This document shows positions 28,580 through 36,733 of a DNA stretch of 64,000 bases, in pieces (the stretch's first letter is position 1; every line of letters starts with the position of its first letter). The notes beneath the pieces are model-generated. The model did not search any database, was not told where the DNA came from, and saw nothing but the letters and a program-made list of their open reading frames with translations. The stretch comes from Aurantiochytrium sp. KH105 (taxonomy: Eukaryota > Sar > Bigyra > Thraustochytrida > Thraustochytriidae), in assembly GCA_003116975.1 (NCBI GenBank), contig BGKB01000014.1, forward strand, positions 514,601 to 578,600, written 5' to 3'. The position numbers were made by a program, and so were the translations under genes.

Positions 28580-30502
28580 ATGGCGGACCTGCACCTGCCC
28601 ACCGTGCGGTACGTGGACGCGGAGGAGAGGCGGCGAGGAGAGGCGCGGACGTGGAGCGAGCGAGCGGGCGAGCGGGCGGTGGATGGAGATGGATGGATCG
28701 ACGGATGGATGGATGGATGGATGGATGGATGGATGATTTGAGAACGAATGGAGGCTTGCGACGCCGCGCGAGCAAGCGCGCAGGCGGCGCGAGCGCAGGC
28801 GAGGGCAAGCGAAAGGAGAACGGAGGCCAGCGCAGCGCAGCGCAGCGCTCCGCCGCGCAGTGCCGCGGCAGCGGATGGCGCCGGCCGTGCGCCGTGCGCC
28901 GTGCGCCGTGCGCCGCTCCGCTCCGCGCGTCTGCCTCTCCGCGCTGACTCGCGCGTAGTGTAGAGAGAGAGAGAGAGAGAGAGGGGAGAGACACAGAGGG
29001 GGAGTGAGAAAGGGGTTATGGTTGTTGGGGAAGGAGACGAAGGAGGACGGCGAGCAGGGCGACATACAGCGAGGCGCGGGGCGAAAAAACTGACGGAGTT
29101 GCGAAACACAGGACGCTGACGAGGGTCTCGGCCGTCTTCTCCCTGTTGGGAGACTTTATCATCATCTATGGGTGCATGCGGAAGGGACCGCGGCACTGGT
29201 CGACGTAAGTGAAATCGGTCGTGATCGAAGGAGGAAATAGTGGAGGAAAAAAGGAGCGGTCCCTTTCTCCCCCCCCCCCCTCTCTCCAAAAAAATCTCTT
29301 CTATCCATCAAATATTTGATGTGTTGCGCGACCCTCCAGACAACTGACACGAAAAGACGAATCCCACCTACAGCTACTTTCGCATCATTTTCTTCATGAC
29401 GCTGTCGGACCTTATCGCGTCCACCGGGTACATGATCTCCGACTATGCGATTCCGCCACCCGACGGGGAAGGATGGCAGAGCCTCTGCATCATGCAGGGC
29501 GCCTTCGAACAGGTCGGCCTCGGGGCCATCCTCTTGAACGCAGCCCTCTCACTCAACTACTTTCTCATTCTCAAGCTTGAATGGCCCGCAGACTACATTG
29601 AGGGCCTCGAGCCGTACGGGTTCGCCTTTGTCTTCATTTTCACCTTTATTTGCACCGTGGCGCCGATTCCATTGAACCTGTACCATAACGCCATCATCTG
29701 GTGCTGGATTGCGGACTTGCCAGCAGATTGCACGGGATCCTCCGCCGTAGAGTGCGCACAAGGCAACAATGCCTTCAATTACCAGCTCTATTTCTTTTAC
29801 GTGCCTCTCTGGTTTTGCATCATCTTCACATTTGTCATGATGTCTCTGGTCGTTTCGGTGGTGTACCGTCAAGATCGTGCTGTGCGCAAAATGGTCGAGT
29901 CGGAGCGGAAAAAGTTCGAGACCACCAAACGTATCATCATTCAGGCTGCTCTCTACGTCGGGGCCTTTGTCCTGACGTACATCTTTGTCACCATCCTGCG
30001 GGTCCAAGACTTTGTCACGGGGAGTCCTGGCGAATACACGACCTATCTCGCGGTCTTCTTTGTGCCTTTGCAAGGCCTTTTTAACCTGGCAGGCTTTATT
30101 TTTCCACGCACCGTCAACGCGCGGACGCGCCTCAAAAATGCACCACTACGTCTCAAAATTCTATACGTGTTCTTTGTTGTCGAAGCTTCGACCGTACAAA
30201 AGGAGATGAGGAAACGCGCCAACGACCGACCTCGTCAGCCAAGTCAGTCTCGCGCGCCGAATCTACCCGGCAAGCTCAGTCAAGCAAGTATTGGCGGCAC
30301 CGGTGATGATGACGACGACGACAGCGAATTGGGGTATGCTCGCCCCGACTCTTCGTCTTCCGCCCTCTCTCAGAACCGGGTGTACGAGTCCGAGGACATC
30401 AACTCGTCTTACAATGGCACTGAAACGTCTCCCCCTTCAAGCAAGGAGGACCCGGCCGAGCCGGAGTCTGAAGTCCACGAGATTGAACGCTCTCAACTTT
30501 AG
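28580..30502 (+). CDS. 7TM receptor of the cAMP-receptor-like GPCR family, copy 2, three exons
   Basis: Hand-built model with exons 28580-28608, 29112-29204 and 29374-30502, about 416 residues. Exon 1 is only 29 bases (MADLHLPTV plus a split Arg). Intron 1 (28609-29111) begins GTACGT and ends CACAG after a CTGAC branch. Intron 2 (29205-29373) begins GTAAGT and ends CTACAG, also after CTGAC. Splicing restores TM1 ([16 protein letters not shown]) and the start of TM2 ([15 protein letters not shown]), aligning with copy 1. Five more helices follow, then [26 protein letters not shown] and [15 protein letters not shown], as in copy 1. The C-terminal tail (about 130 residues) is Ser/Glu-rich. Presumed G-protein-coupled receptor of unknown ligand. 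The downstream gene region is the IS607 element on the opposite strand. Confidence 0.87.
28679..28735. repeat. (GGAT)n microsatellite in intron 1 of receptor 2
   Basis: About 13 GGAT units, partly interrupted. A (GA)n run of about 22 bases at 28961-28984 lies in the same intron. Confidence 0.9.
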
Positions 30503-30883
30503 ATACTTCCTCTTTGTTCTACCCTACGTCGTCGAGATTCTCTCGTCCACCCTGTGTTTTTTGTACGTAATTTCTCTCCGCTTTGTTGTTGCTCTTTCGG
30601 TTTCGTTCTCCTCTTGCTCTTTTCCTTTCTCTCGAGCACTCGTTCGTGCCAACTATCGCATACTGGACAGTAATTACTGTTCTCAGGAATAATTTGTGCA
30701 AGGGCCAGTCCCGACTTGCCAAAGAGACCACCCGCCCCCCTTATACCATTATCAAACAGACTTTTACAAAGTACATTTGGTGATCGCAGGCCGTAGACCA
30801 CGCTGTAGAACGCCGTTACTGTTAATTATCTCTTCAAATAATAGAAAATGTAAGCCGCAACTAGCACAAGTTTACCAGAAGAG
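30503..30883. other. Spacer holding the 3' end of receptor 2 and the left part of the IS607-type element
   Basis: No gene seen. It has a perfect 14-base palindrome (ACAGTAATTACTGT, 30667-30680). On the minus strand the stretch just after the Fanzor stop (about 30883-30690) is where the guide (omega) RNA scaffold of TnpB/Fanzor elements usually lies. I could not recognise its fold by eye. Confidence 0.45.
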
Positions 30884-32197
30884 TCACTTCGTGCACGAGA
30901 TGGATTTGATGTAGATATTTCGAGCACTGTTGATGTCTCTGCCAACGGAGAGACCACAACGATCACAATTATATCGTTTATTTCCACCAAGATTGCGTTT
31001 CACGTATCCGCATCTTGTGCAGGCTTTTGAAGTGTACTCTTCAGGAACGGCCAGCGTGTTTCTCACATGTCCGTGGTCTTGAATGAGTTTGTCGCGAAAG
31101 CGACAGTGAGAAAGCATTTGTATCTAGCGCTTCGCAGCTCGATGGGGTTTGGGTGATTTGAGGATGACACCTAATTTACCAACCCGGATTTCTTGAAAGT
31201 TGTCTAGAAGAAAGCGAATGATCTTGTTGTGTGTGTCTTTGACTTTGTTCTTCATTTTTGCCCAAAGCATTTGCTCTTTGCGCTTGTAGGTCTTCTTTCT
31301 ATGGATGCGACTTCCAGTCTTTTCATCCCCATCCCGGGAGCTTCTGATCTGGTCGATACGCTTTGCCAAGTCGAGCATACTGTAAGACTTGAAATTTCCA
31401 CGTTTCTCAGAACCAGTGGTACGTGGCAAGACGTTGAGTGTTGCACATAGTTTCGCATCGTTCGAATTCCTCGCCTGGCATCAGGTCTTTGGGAATGTCC
31501 ACTTCATTATTGTGGATCAATAGAGTGTTTGAAAGTCACGAGCACCTGGATCGAGTGTCGCGTCCTTAAGAGGTGCTGGTTTGAGCTTTTCTCGCTTTTT
31601 CTGATATGGATTGATCAGGTACCAACGATCAGGTTCTTCGTAAAGGATTTTGCAGTCCTTTTTAATCTCGGGGAGCTTTCGATTTCGCTTTCTCGAACCT
31701 TGACTTTTGTACCGCAATGGTCCAAATGGTTCAGCTTTGTCGTCAACATCCAACTTCCACCTATATTTTTTCATGAGGAAGATGAAGTTGTCGTCAAATG
31801 CATTATTCTTGGCGAACATACACTTTTGCACTGGAATAACACCAAAACCTCGCTTGTCGCGCCTTGACGGAAAGCGCATTTCGAACTTCTTCACGTTTCC
31901 AGCTTTTTTGTTCGAAAAGGTGGATTTGTAAGCAGCTGCTAGACGACGCAGTGTGTCACCACGCATTGTGTATGGGACAGTCTCAATCTCTTCATCGAGC
32001 TTTCGTTCCTTCTCGACTTCGCGATTCAACGCTTTACGAGTTGGTCCAAGAAAGTATTTTTTCATCTCCGCAAAATGAGTGCCTACATTTCCTTTCTTGA
32101 TATGCTCAAGAGCCAGGTTCCACAATGCACGTAGTGCGTGGTGAATTTTGGCAAAAATCTCTCTTTGACGAAGTGTTGGTCGTAGCTTAACTTTCAT
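30884..32197 (-). pseudogene. Fanzor2/TnpB-family RNA-guided nuclease (tnpB-like), interrupted
   Basis: The likely start is the ATG at 32197, giving MKVKLRPTLRQREIF, a typical TnpB beginning. The first motifs are ALRALWNLALEHI and YTMRGDTLRRLAAAYKS. RuvC-I LDPGARDFQT follows near 31530, and LDNFQEIRVGKLG marks the RuvC-II region. Next come SHCRFRDKL and VPEEYTSKACTRCGY, holding the alternative catalytic Glu of Fanzor-type proteins. The second zinc-finger half is YNCDRCG, and RuvC-III is GRDINSARN. All this lies in one frame over about 437 codons, broken only by three in-frame stops (TGA at 31517-31519 and 31481-31483, TAG at 31124-31126). Catalytic Asp-Glu-Asp and all four zinc cysteines survive. 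About 30 extra, poorly fitting codons sit after RuvC-I. No GT-AG intron removes the first stop while keeping the motif, so I call it a young pseudogene. Confidence 0.87.
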
Positions 32198-32813
32198 CGA
32201 TCTTACAAAGTCGCTTTCTTCCTCGTCGGCTGCTTCGTTGACCATGGAGACGACACCCGAAGACGGTGATGATTGAGACGAGGTCTTTGACGAGTTCACC
32301 TTGTGGTCCTCCATCGTCTTCTTGTCCATTTGGATGGACAACTCGAATTGAGGCTCCTTTGGAAGTGACAATCCACTCGAGCAAGTCGAATGCGAATTTA
32401 CAGAGACGGTCTCTATAGGTAACCACGACTTCTTCGAGTTCTCCACGCATTGCGAGTTCCAGAATGGAACGAAGACCGCGTCTTTGGAAGTTGATACCCG
32501 ACCCGATGTCTTGGATGACTTGGTGATTGGGGAAGTTTTCTTCGAACCAAGCGACTTGTCTGGAGAGTTCGTCTTTCTGCGCTTTGCTACTGCCTCTTGC
32601 ATAACATAGTCGACGTCGCTCAACTTCCGTTTGCCCAGGAGTGCCCGACCGAACTGGTGTCAAAGTCCTCGCTACATACTCGTCGGTGCCCGCCTTTTGT
32701 TCTGTAACTTCTGACTTTGTTGTCGTTAGCGTATAATTTCATATTGTATCTCTGTGTAGACCGAGCCGCACAGCGGCGACTCCAATGGAGACGTAGTGTT
32801 GTTAATCTGACAT
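32187..32813 (-). pseudogene. IS607-family TnpA serine recombinase, frame-disrupted
   Basis: Read from the ATG at 32813. A MerR-like helix-turn-helix is recognisable as YVSIGVAAVRLGLHRDTI, then (other frame) YANDNKVRSYRTKGGHRR, then (third frame) YVARTLTPVRSG. The small catalytic domain follows: VERRRLCYARGSSKAQKDEL with the nucleophile Ser of the YARxSS motif, INFQRRGLRSILELAM, VVTYRDRLCKFAFDLLEW, VHPNGQEDD and VFGCRLHGQRS. There are two frame shifts (near 32748 and near 32683) and one stop codon just after the ATG. The catalytic half (32663-32187) is an intact frame. The family normally cuts and joins at a GG core without target duplication. The stop at 32187-32189 overlaps the fanzor start region, implying the genes were once coupled. 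Confidence 0.87.
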
Positions 32814-33416
32814 CGAGCGACACCACCAACCCGAGTTTCGGTTTTGCTGGAAACGATTTGGTCTTGCTTTCGATTCAGGTCACTTCCACACCCGTTCGCA
32901 TCGTATAGTCCTGAGAAACAACGTACCGACAAAATAATACACATGGTTCTATTTGCTGTAACAGCGTTAAAGTTAGCCCTCGTAGGATCAGAGAAGAATG
33001 AGAGAGAGAGACAAGAGACAGAGAACGAAAAATACAAAGTTGATTCATGTGAGGCTCATACTACTACTACAGCGACCACGCTGCACAATAAGATGGCTGG
33101 CTGATTTACAGCGCCGCAGCGGCCGTGCCGCGCGTGCCGCGCAGTGTGTAAACGCGCCCGCCGTCCCCCCTCCCCCCCTCGTCGCCCTCGCCCGCGCACG
33201 CGACCGCACGCCAGGGCGGCAGACCCGCAAGGCGCAAGGCAGCAGGCCTCTTCGGGCTTGCTCCCCGCGCACGCCTCGCACCAGCGCCCAGCCCCGGCAC
33301 GCCCGGCTCCCCTCGGCCCCTCGGCCCGCGCCGCCGCGCGCGCCCCGCCCGCCGCAGCGCCCGCGCCGCGCGCCGCGCCCTCGCGCCCTCGCGCCGCCCG
33401 GCCCCGCGCCGCCGCC
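32814..33416. promoter_or_regulatory. Right flank of the transposon and promoter of the WD40-Roc-COR-TIR gene
   Basis: Composition changes abruptly near 33100 from AT-rich element-like DNA to CpG-dense DNA that runs to the start codon. A short GAGA/GACA run lies at 32998-33022. The CpG-dense 300 bp is the likely core promoter and leader. Confidence 0.5.
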
Positions 33417-36400
33417 ATGGGCCGCATCGGAGGCCACGTAGAGTGCGTCGCGCAGACCGCCGACCTCGTGCTCGCTGGCAGCGGCGAAGGCACGTCCGTG
33501 TACGCGTGGAGCAAGGAGGACGGCGCCCTCGTCTTCGAGATGAAGACGCCCGACGGCCGCGGGGCCTGGGCGATGGCCGTGCAGGGCAAGCTCATCGCCG
33601 TGGGAACTGCCGGCGGCGGGCTCTTTCTTATCGACCTGGCCACCGCCTCCGTCCTGCACGCCCTGGAGGGCCACACCGACGGTGTTCGGAGCGTCATCTT
33701 CGACGGCGACGAGATCATCTCCGGGTCTCAGGACAAGACAATCCGTGTCTGGGACAAGATGAGCGGCCGAGAGACCTTGAGGATCGACGCCGGGGCGTGG
33801 GTCTACAGCGTTGCCGCCCACGAGAACCTGCTCGTGGCCGGGTTGAAAGACAACACCGTGCGCGTCTTCGACCGGGCCAGCGGCGGCCCACGCCACGTCC
33901 TCACGGAGGCGACAGGCGAGGTCAACGCGGTCGCGATCGACGCGCAGCGCATGGTGAGCGGGTCCGACGACAAGAAGGTGAGGGTCTACGCCGTGCCTTC
34001 CTTCCAGCTCGTGTCCTCGAAGGACACACCTGGGTGTTGCGCTCTGTCGCGCTCGAGGGAGACCGCATCGTGAGCGGGTCCGGCGACGAGACGGTCAGAC
34101 TCTGGGACGCGCGCAGCGGAGACGCGCTGCACGTCTTGCGAGGACACTCGAACTTGGTGAAGTCGGTCTCTCTCTTGGGGTCGGAGATCGTGAGCGGATC
34201 TGGCAGCTTTATAAGTACGGACAACAGCGTGCGCATCTGGGACGCGGAGACGGGCGCCTCGACGCGCGTGCTGGACGGCACGGAGGCCGTGCGGCCCATC
34301 GAGGACGTGCTCGGCGGCCCCGCGCCTACTGCGGCGGCGAAGGAGGCGCTCCAGGCGGCGCTGGCGAACGGGGACCCCGCGGAGCTGGGCCGCTGCAAGC
34401 TCATGGTCGTCGGCCAGGGCGCCGCCGGCAAGACGTCCACGGTGCGCTCGCTGCTGGGCTTGGCGCCGGAGAAGAATCACATCTCGACGGAGGGCGTCGA
34501 GCTCACGCGCACCGATGCAGAGTCCTGGAAAAAGAGCAAGGACTTCGACAGCGGGTTTGAACGCCAGGCGTACCGCGTGGCGGCGCTGCGCATGGCCGTG
34601 CAGGAGCAAGCGGCGAGCAAGAAGCGGCAATCGCTGCCGAGGCGCATGTCTCGCGGCATTGTAGACGTCGTACGTCGACGTTCCTCTGCGGCGCGGCCCT
34701 TCGTCGCAGAGGAGCAAGTGGAGCTGGTGCCCGAGGCCGAGGTGGCGCGGCGATTCGACATTGCGGAGATCGAGCACATGGCCGGCCAGACGCAGTCGGG
34801 CGAGAAGATCAAGTTTACAATCTGGGACTATGCAGGTCAGGACGTCTTTTACGCGCTGCACCACATTTTCCTCACGCGCGAGGGCGGCGTCTTCATGCTC
34901 GTGTTCAACATGCAAGAGCTCATGGACAAGCGCGTTCAAGCCTCGGACTATCTCCGCTTCTGGCTCAATTCGATCCAACTTCACGCCCCCGATGCTCCTG
35001 TCATTCTGGTTGGCTCCCACTACGACAAATCCGCCAACAATGCTCGCGCTGTAGAAAAGATTCTTCGCGACGACTTTCAGGCTCAGCGCGGCGTCAAGTT
35101 GGTCGAGAATCGGGCCGAAAGACTTAGTTTCTTCCCAATCAACAACATGGCGTCTGCTGCCGACCGCGCCACAGATCTACGTTCCGTTGTCGAGAAAACA
35201 GCGTCGAGCCTTCCATCGGTCTCGCAAAAGATCTCGCTCCGCTGGCTCAAGGTGCTCGACGACCTCATGAAGCTCGATTGCGACCACGTTCCGTTTGCCA
35301 AAGTACAGGAGTTTGCGACCAAGTACCACGCAGGGGATCAGACAGACGAGCTGCTCAAGTTCTTTCACGAGCTAGGTATGCTTGTACACTTGCGTTCCAC
35401 GGACACTCTGCACGACAAGGTCGTCATGAATCCGCAATGGCTTCTGGACAAGCTTTCTCGCGTGATCGCCGACGAAATCCATGTGGAGGACATTTACTAT
35501 GACGAAAGGCTTGCTGAGCTTGACCTCGAGGAGGATTTTTGGCACTTGAGGCACCGCGGCATCGCCTCGCGTAGCCTGCTCGAGTTTCTATGGGACAACG
35601 AGGAAGTCGACTATCTTGCAGGATTTATGGGCGACACCATGCTTGCGTCAGATTGGGCCTTTCCCGAGGATTTCATCCGCGCGAAAGCTCGAGACGGCGA
35701 AGCACTGTACCTTGTGAGCAGTCTTCTTGGGGACGCGCACGACGCCGAGCTCATCGCAGATATCGAGAGCATGGCCCCAGGTCTGACGTGCGTGCTCGAC
35801 TTCTCCGACCTTTTCCTTCCCAACGGCGTCTTTGCGCGCCTCCTGTCCTTGTGCGCCAAGTACAGCAGTACGTGCGGGGCGCAGAGCAACCCGCCGCGAC
35901 TCAGTGGGCGCCACGCCCTTATCTGCTTTGGGCTTTCTGAGTTTGCTCTTGAGGTGCGTGGCAACCAGATTTGGCTACGGGCTGTGCCTGGCACCTACCG
36001 ACCGGCCAGTACGCTCAAGGTTTTGATCAGTATGTTTAAGGGGGCTCGCGATGCCGTCTTCCAACGTCTTCCGTGGAAGCTACACCTCCAGTCCCCCGTG
36101 GACGCGTCCATTTTGGTTTCCTACGACAAATACATGGCCGCTCTCGATGCCAAACTCGCCGTGGTCAAGGCAGTCGGCATGGGCAACGCCCGCGTGTCGG
36201 ACTTTGCAGCGTTCTTCAACGATGGTTTGCTTGACGACGACAAGCACGACACGGGTCCGGTCGAGTCCGTTCCAATGCTCGCGCTGCCTCCAGGCACGCG
36301 TTGGCACGTCTTCATCAGCCACAAGCAGTCCGAGGCTGGCGATGCCTGCAACCTCATTGCAGAAAAGCTCCTTAATCGCGGCCTCAATGTCTGGATTGAC

Positions 36401-36733
36401 CAGCGCACCAAGGGCAATTTGTCCACGACGGAGATGCGCGACGGCATCAGAGCTTCCAAGTGCTACCTTTTGTTTCTCACCAAGTCCGTCTTCAAGTCCG
36501 ACGCCGTTTGCATGGAGCTCGAGACGGCTTTAGAGGCGGAGAAACCCATCTTGCTTGTGCACGAGAGCAATCCAGATCTTCCGGCTTTCGCATCGTTTTC
36601 GACATATATTTCTTCTGCACCGGACGCTGCCAAGTTCCTCTTCGACAAACGGGAGTCCATGCCTTTTCAGCGTCGCCTATATCTGGCCGAGGGCTTTTAC
36701 AAGGAGCTCATTGCACGCATCAACGCAAGTTGA
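33417..36733 (+). CDS. WD40 - Roc - COR - TIR multidomain protein (one frame break)
   Basis: About 1,105 residues if the frame change near 34010 is bridged. The ATG at 33417 has a strong context (GCCGCCATGG). Seven WD40 blades (33430-34270) end in IRVWDKMSG, VRVFDRASG, VRLWDARSG or VRIWDAETG. The Roc GTPase has P-loop LMVVGQGAAGKTS (about 34399), G3 WDYAGQDVF (about 34822) and G4-like VGSHYDKS (about 35006). The COR region lies about 35210-36030. A C-terminal TIR domain (36295-36600) begins WHVFISHKQSEAGDACNLIA and continues AVCMELETALEAEKPILLV; the Glu at 36515-36517 fits the NADase position. Blades 1-5 lie in one frame and blade 6 onward in another, offset by one base at the blade 5/6 joint, consistent with a one-base deletion or a sequencing error. 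By family logic it is an NLR-like sensor: propeller sensing, GTPase switch, TIR output. Confidence 0.85.

Follow-up and report, generated by a model that had tools for sequence, protein, structure and literature searches.

Introduction

The closest described relatives of the locus analysed here are the elements ISvMimi_1 and ACa-1/-2 of Bao & Jurka, in which, according to the accessible part of PMC3627910, a TnpA_IS607-like serine recombinase accompanies a Fanzor2 protein. The accessible part of PMC10711439 gives DPG together with an alternative glutamate as the fingerprint of Fanzors and pro-Fanzors, places the IS607 crossover between GG dinucleotides, has the IS607 guide RNA extend past the right-end boundary of the transposon, and holds that this lineage of IS607 elements had properties suited to eukaryotes, among which that part does not mention gene layout. 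In ISDra2 of IS200/IS605, tnpA and tnpB partially overlap, as described in the accessible part of PMC12477157. The element reported here lies in a 64,000-nucleotide stretch (the window) of contig BGKB01000014.1 of the thraustochytrid Aurantiochytrium sp. KH105, and sequence comparison confirmed its predicted identity as an IS607-type transposon with a serine transposase gene (tnpA) and a Fanzor2-type TnpB. It belongs to one of two families of such elements in this genome, named below the window's family and the second family. We consider it quite probable that the element is a dead member of a Fanzor2 lineage of IS607 elements in which the nuclease frame opens in or upstream of tnpA and is partly translated as an N-terminal segment. 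Loci are designated by L-numbers (some from other genomes or viral contigs) and contigs of this genome by C-numbers.

Results

In intact copies, the TnpB frame extends far upstream across tnpA. The overlap measured 377-756 nt in 37 Fanzor-type rows with a tnpA of at least 115 codons (four from this genome, three from Chromatiaceae and the others from environmental viral contigs), and the frame relation was +1 in every one of the long-overlap rows. Shorter overlaps among Fanzor-type rows were associated with contig edges or broken tnpAs. In the same scans, three ordinary-TnpB elements with a full tnpA had an overlap of 23-32 nt; in two others, where a remnant of tnpA is left, it was 38 nt. The viral contigs, which may or may not come from viruses of eukaryotes, yielded no relative when scanned with proteins or alignments of this genome; motif patterns alone gave matches, in two scans yielding 52 and 47 stretches, many of them Fanzor-type IS607 elements. 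On plasmid A of Trichormus variabilis (L193) a 578-aa frame, of which the last 1209 nt are annotated, runs over a tnpA remnant. TnpB is annotated there from position 2004 and the frame is open from 1476 over the tnpA fragment; judged from these positions, the annotated start may lie too far downstream.

Stop codons of the +1 frame over tnpA were compared with those in synonymous shuffles that keep the TnpA protein and the codon usage. The 23 Fanzor-type clusters held 39 such stops against 119.8 expected (Fisher 5e-21), with depletion at P<0.05 in 16 of them, and the window's family gave P 0.004. In the +2 frame of the same clusters 271 stops were found and 299 expected (Fisher 0.04). Nine ordinary plasmid IS607 elements had 100 stops in +1 (100.8 expected) and 130 in +2 (150.8 expected, Fisher 0.018). 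The test comprised 30 clusters, and the seven that were not Fanzor-typed, with either an ordinary TnpB (L116, L119, L131) or a fragmentary one (L156, L113, L171, L091), together gave a +1 Fisher P of 0.0016, the lowest single value being that of L156 (0.004). Loci whose tnpA frame, counted from the first methionine, has fewer than 115 codons were excluded from this test and from the four-fold and column tests below; the loci so excluded lie at contig edges or have broken tnpAs, and they include L140, L165, L166, L177 and L186, and L193 is not in these sets. The nine controls exclude L197 and L204, in which tnpA is unannotated, and include L198, in which DPG is present and the glutamate is untyped.

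A four-fold degenerate site of tnpA falls on a second codon position in the other frame. Change at such sites in the overlap was compared with that at four-fold sites of the tnpB core. In 22 of 23 pairs the tnpA sites had changed less, 15 of them at P<0.05; the pairs share members, and 4 of 27 candidate pairs were dropped for having fewer than 20 four-fold sites. For L058/L059 of this genome the changes were 25/66 in the overlap against 87/133 in the tnpB core (P 2e-4), for L136/L154 12/63 against 44/96, and for L173/L189 5/48 against 41/86. No slow-down was seen in the ordinary pairs among L206, L207 and L208 (0.58-0.62 in tnpA, 0.50-0.56 in tnpB); in this comparison L205, which has no TnpB annotated, was omitted and L194 added, its pairs giving P 0.70, 0.15 and 0.014.

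Sixteen +1 columns of the Fanzor set were at least 70% conserved, as compared to 1.0 in shuffles (z 15.5), and the 22 other tnpAs (the nine plasmid controls, L116, L119, L131 and ten GTDB tnpAs) had 1 such column against 1.4. Among 23 representatives, P[YF]W was present in 19, LWLP..TD (loosely matched) in 16 and SWFS (also loosely) in 18. These motifs rest on fixed wobble bases: in one column the wobble base is C in 19 of 20 four-fold codons, the commonest tnpA residue there occurring in 9 of 23 sequences, and in another it is T in 17 of 18. Among solved proteins the nearest is the TnpB-like protein L79 (entry 9b0l; E 3e-25 and 2e-24), which we take to be a mimivirus protein. A profile of the full frame aligns to it from residue 77, within the extension, and the deposited 520-aa protein thus includes part of that extension; a profile of the extension alone had no match in the PDB. 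For the window's family itself, the evidence consists of the openness of the frame and the first motif, mapped in Table 1. At the level of the lineage the second frame is open beyond chance, and synonymous change in the first frame is slowed except in L041/L045.

A number of results weigh against the explanation favoured here. The clusters share ancestry, so that the Fisher value overstates their independence, and in the second family alone the depletion of stops was not significant (P 0.25 and 0.36). In the window's family, the canonical tnpB start of L041 overlaps the tnpA end by 11 nt only, the pair L041/L045 had four-fold changes of 11/82 against 10/154 (no slow-down, the sole exception), and shared substitutions in the overlap were highest at tnpA third positions. 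The +1 motifs are not universal, and L041 is without the SWF part. The +2 frame of the Fanzor set also had 9 conserved columns against 2.3 in shuffles; it is raised, as expected from shared bases, to a lesser degree than the +1 frame. Mean conservation behaved similarly, with z values of 20.3 (+1) and 11.9 (+2) in the Fanzor set and of 6.7 and 4.4 in the 22 other tnpAs; as the latter also exceed their shuffles, some wobble conservation is general, and in a 12-sequence subset of the other tnpAs the values were 1.3 and -0.5. No conserved start codon was found for the extension, no ATG column being conserved beyond chance, and a spacing suited to leaky scanning was rejected because the first +1 ATG is no nearer than in shuffles. 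Folds of the right end, where a guide RNA would be sought, did not exceed shuffled sequences in stability (z -0.99 to +0.93).

The most serious competing explanation is that the nuclease has no start of its own and that the +1 frame is kept open for a TnpA-TnpB fusion, made by programmed +1 frameshifting on the ribosome or existing naturally. The constant +1 relation of the long-overlap rows and the missing conserved start codon would suit it, as would L204 on a Helicobacter sp. plasmid, where tnpA and tnpB form one 632-aa frame, either a natural fusion or a sequencing artefact. The conserved +1 columns, however, lie well inside tnpA, and the 520-aa L79 record includes part of the extension, and we regard this explanation as unlikely. 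It is improbable, too, that these are ordinary Fanzor2 IS607 elements with the canonical short overlap, the open +1 frame being due to chance, composition or relatedness. The 11-nt overlap in L041, the lack of slow-down in the window's family and the excess over shuffles of the +2 frame and, by mean, of other tnpAs are what such elements would display; they would not display 39 stops in place of 120 in 23 clusters when nine controls have 100 in place of 101, nor wobble bases fixed at four-fold tnpA codons, as with C in 19 of 20. There is little chance that the conserved wobble bases stem from a signal within tnpA at the RNA or DNA level, such as a regulatory RNA or an internal promoter, and not from a protein: the +2 frame is raised as well and IS607-linked guide RNAs exist, but a signal of this kind would not deplete stops chiefly in the +1 frame, and the known IS607 guide RNA runs beyond the right-end boundary (PMC10711439, accessible part). 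An origin outside the nuclear genome, through bacterial or viral contamination or through misassembly, might be suspected from the GC content of the segment (0.45-0.49, below most of the window), but it is scarcely credible given the colinear flanks and empty site on the homologous contig C76 and the many copies, decayed to varying degrees, that lie on different contigs.

Sister copies of both families have DPG in RuvC-I and the alternative glutamate just before the zinc finger, and because these match the published definition, both families carry the Fanzor fingerprint. Scanning GTDB with TnpA retrieved 22 relatives, the closest in Chromatiaceae (41-44% TnpA identity), where the TnpBs adjoining tnpA (L086-L088) have DPG and the alternative glutamate and have lost the zinc-finger cysteines. 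The pro-Fanzor type was thus found in Chromatiaceae and, with a broken tnpA, in Trichormus (L193). L086-L088 represent this type outside cyanobacteria, with a degenerate zinc finger (YTSKTASWTG); the end of their tnpA also reaches 212 nt into the TnpB core.

In a tree of TnpB proteins that included the Fanzor2s of viral contigs, the two host families stood apart, and their grouping was rejected by the approximately unbiased (AU) test (p 0.004; the group was named after the tree had been seen, and three long or gappy rows were excluded). As the families do not group, at least two lineages probably entered, and a single entry for both was rejected on this tree. In the TnpA tree, both families and L091 share one side of a weakly supported fork at which long branches meet. 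Past horizontal entry, proposed in a first-pass annotation made from the window's letters alone, fits two unrelated families.

In the window copy, separate open reading frames (ORFs) gave Pfam matches, all on the minus strand: Resolvase (PF00239, 58.9 bits, cut-off 23.3) at 32187-32663, HTH_OrfB_IS605 (19.5 bits, under the cut-off of 21) at 31517-32623, OrfB_IS605 (27.5 bits, under the cut-off of 30.5) at 31124-31429, and Cas12f1-like_TNB (49.0 bits, cut-off 26.3) at 30884-31117. The TnpA and TnpB motifs quoted in the first-pass annotation are all found in these ORFs (DPGARDF, CTRCGY, YNCDRCG and GRDINSARN, with YARGSS as the catalytic motif), and the window copy retains DPG and EEYTSKAC. The TnpA of L041 matches MerR/HTH_17 and then Resolvase, the window copy Resolvase alone; L041 therefore has the N-terminal helix-turn-helix (HTH) and C-terminal serine resolvase of an IS607 TnpA. 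The IS607 transposase model NF033518 (cut-off 110) scored 171.7 for L041, 118.2 for L059 and 109.8, just below, for L058, and the guided_TnpB model NF040570 (cut-off 100) gave 108.1 and 142.9 bits for sister copies. PF07282, which covers the zinc finger CxxC...CxxC and RuvC-III, exceeded its cut-off in all 25 of the matches that this genome gave, those on C11, C18 and C27 being weak. The profile matches that the same annotation had proposed to look for were thus obtained, and with L79 as the nearest solved protein they bear out its assignment to an IS607-type transposon with Fanzor2/TnpB in a protist nuclear genome; sister models and host flanks place the IS607 element within a genome whose size and host genes are those of a eukaryote.

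Alignment of the sister copies revealed a sharp right end at ...AGTAACGG and a left start directly after GG. By eye, the left-end GG was present in 9 of the 11 copies that reach this end (L055 is without it, L043 ambiguous), and all 16 aligned rows terminate on the right in AACGG. In the window these dinucleotides are the CC at 30813-30814 (right) and at 32977-32978 (left). On C76 the two flanking genes are present together with the empty site CACCCTCGTAGG, which corresponds to CC-element-CCC in the window: the empty site is a single GG core, and the filled site has GG at each side, an outcome that IS607 recombination predicts. In the window's family, insertion thus occurred at GG with a two-base core and no longer target duplication. 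Long blocks of C76 and the window are 88-96% identical, and a 122-bp block adjoining the element 80%. Because both flanks run colinearly on C76 without the element, its linkage to the host, between the 7TM-like and WD40/Roc-COR/TIR genes, is supported, as had been proposed, and contamination was rejected on these grounds and on that of the empty allele. Since its ends were mapped from sister copies and the empty site, the element extends over 30813-32978(-) and not over the 30680-32917 of the first-pass annotation. That annotation foresaw neither the decay of this copy into a pseudogene that carries a nested insertion of 54 bp, nor the empty allele, nor the overlap of the nuclease frame with tnpA.

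Table 1. Features of the IS607-type element and its flanks, in window coordinates.
Feature	Position	Strand	Basis or remarks
Whole IS607-type element	30813..32978	-	GG (CC on +) at both ends; left end is the high-coordinate end; based on sister copies and the C76 empty site
tnpA, serine transposase, N-terminal HTH then resolvase domain; pseudogene	32187..32813	-	PF00239; mapped on sister L041
Part of the +1-frame upstream extension of tnpB overlapping tnpA	32197..32623	-	Open frame 31517-32623
+1-frame motif PFWNSQCVENSKKSWLPIE inside tnpA	32411..32467	-	Motif comparison, mapped on sisters
tnpB/Fanzor2 core: HTH, RuvC-I DPG, alternative Glu, zinc finger, RuvC-III; interrupted	30884..32197	-	
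54-bp nested insertion (57-bp match), end fragment of a high-copy repeat	31467..31523	-	
Conserved right-end non-coding part after the tnpB stop	30813..30883	-	Expected end of the guide-RNA scaffold; terminates ..TAACGG
Flanking host gene, seven-transmembrane (7TM) receptor-like ORF	29396..30502	+	PF05462, 21.4 bits, cut-off 21
Flanking host gene, WD40 + Roc-COR + TIR, two adjoining frames	~33417..36733	+	Pfam

Judged by its reading frames, the window copy is dead. When mapped on L041, its tnpA has two frameshifting insertions and two stops in the reference frame; its tnpB core is broken by the nested 54-bp insertion, which puts an in-frame stop into RuvC, and by one further stop. The inserted piece is the terminus of a repeat, ATTGATCCACAATAATGAAGTGGACATTCCC..., found in at least 20 other places (L067-L080 among them); only its terminal fragment is present here. 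An introner was considered for this insertion and dropped, as the piece elsewhere terminates a longer repeat.

A DNA search of the 76 Mb genome with the element gave 46 matches, and 10 places, the window included, cover at least ~1.9 kb. The element is not a chance resemblance, since the nine other places match it over ~1.9-2.07 kb at 87-90% DNA identity. The window's family has 18 places by count, plus one 152-bp right-end fragment on C179; the other matches are pieces of these places, the 57-bp repeat, or host flank. In 12 aligned copies of this family tnpA is unbroken in two and the tnpB core in four. Substitutions at codon positions 1/2/3 were 15/13/37 (shared) and 47/42/43 (private) in tnpA, and 45/36/67 (shared) and 32/30/40 (private) in the tnpB core; the shared changes concentrate at third positions and the private ones hardly do, which argues that the family was once under protein selection and that single copies decayed later. 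L053 (C179) is an internal-deletion derivative that keeps both ends and is likely non-autonomous; L054 (C120) resembles it, but has a string of Ns at the joint and is truncated on the left.

The second family occupies five places, on contigs C165, C242, C266, C200 and C201, and its TnpB core is ~25% identical to that of the window's family. Three of its copies have both genes open and are near-identical over ~2.45 kb; intact relatives elsewhere in the genome, which had been thought possible from the window alone, thus exist. The ends of this family are GCCG (left) and GCG (right), and its core is less clear-cut than that of the window's family. For the intact copy L060 (C242), the homologous contig C48 (L084) is without the element, and the junction differs by a few bases. 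L060 hence coexists with an element-free allele, its junction departing slightly from a clean IS607 core, and the 20 bases from one base past its right end, the expected place of a guide, are identical in that allele. For L059, a partner contig without the element was found, but its junction is rearranged; for L061 no homologous partner contig was found in the assembly. In L057 (C201) and L058 (C200) the left part consists of other sequence starting GGTGGTGTGGCGAAGAGG, and their tnpA frames are without the usual start and part of the HTH.

An Rfam search gave no match to a right-end RNA. The right end of the second family has a 36-pair consensus with 92.8% of cells paired, which was derived from the same five sequences; six pairs are changed on both sides, in two independent lineages.

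The contig pairs C14/C76, C242/C48 and C165/C9 are homologous and 88-96% identical in the long blocks compared; from this similarity, they are diverged haplotypes or a hybrid. PfaD-like domains lie in frames of 1845-2152 aa on four contigs, which pair by equal scores. Taken with the size of the genome, its host genes and the known occurrence of PUFA synthases, they suggest a thraustochytrid host.

Discussion

Taken together, these results favour a lineage of IS607 elements whose nuclease frame begins within tnpA or a short way upstream of it, lies in the +1 frame and remains open over ~125-250 codons of that gene. Part of it would be translated as an N-terminal nuclease segment, given the selection on the frame seen across the lineage. 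By analogy with IS607, an intact TnpA serine recombinase would excise the element and insert it at a GG dinucleotide, the two-base core being shared. As expected from work on TnpB and Fanzor proteins, Fanzor2 would take as its guide an RNA made from the right end and adjoining DNA and would cleave the empty target, and such cleavage would favour retention of the element. A wider proposal, which we put forward tentatively and hold to be doubtful, is that in Fanzor2s and their bacterial ancestors an N-terminal segment of the nuclease shares its DNA with the transposase gene as a dual-coding stretch. Translation of either protein would then begin close to the 5' end of a single mRNA, and a capped, scanned mRNA could yield both TnpA and the nuclease. 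On this proposal the layout, found already in bacterial pro-Fanzors, would have allowed this TnpB lineage to establish itself in eukaryotes and in viruses of eukaryotes.

Fanzors are under study as genome editors. Should the nuclease indeed begin inside tnpA, its start may be misplaced downstream in gene calls, constructs cut down to the core would miss a conserved segment, and neither tnpA nor the nuclease could evolve without constraint from the other. With its intact near-identical copies, decayed copies and alleles without insertion, the host genome offers a test bed.

A literature search, mostly of open full texts, found no description of +1 overprinting of nuclease and tnpA among the matches listed. 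None of the matches listed for overlapping genes in IS607 or tnpB mentions IS607 or tnpB, and none of those listed for an N-terminal extension of Fanzor2 mentions Fanzor2; the full-text search also found no paper pairing Fanzor with thraustochytrids. Together with the sequence comparisons, this suggests that the overlap layout is apparently undescribed and that gene layout is the new point of this variant.

Comparison with known systems

Ordinary bacterial IS607 elements (of the ISCfe1/ISChh1 type, and others on plasmids) likewise have a serine transposase gene followed by tnpB. In the ordinary plasmid elements the annotated tnpA/tnpB overlap is -32 to 50 nt and the open frames overlap by 14-184 nt, whereas the Fanzor-type overlaps are far longer.

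Overprinted viral genes encode two proteins in different frames of one stretch, with slowed synonymous change. Unlike them, the arrangement described here belongs to a transposon lineage common to bacteria, environmental viral contigs and a protist, and it extends a nuclease and encodes no separate small protein.

The elements of Bao & Jurka (PMC3627910, accessible part) share with those of this genome a TnpA_IS607-like serine recombinase, a Fanzor2 with the C-terminal motif set, and the lack of inverted repeats and target duplications, and L79 is the nearest solved protein here. The word 'overlap' is missing from the main text of that paper. The elements reported here differ in their host, in the presence of two unrelated families in one genome, and in the +1 overlap with tnpA. 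The words 'overlap', 'reading frame' and 'N-terminal' are likewise missing from the main text of PMC10711439. With the pro-Fanzors, as described in the accessible part of that paper, the elements of this genome have DPG, the alternative glutamate and an IS607 TnpA in common; in the pro-Fanzors found here, the long overlap is already present in Chromatiaceae, where the zinc-finger cysteines are lost.

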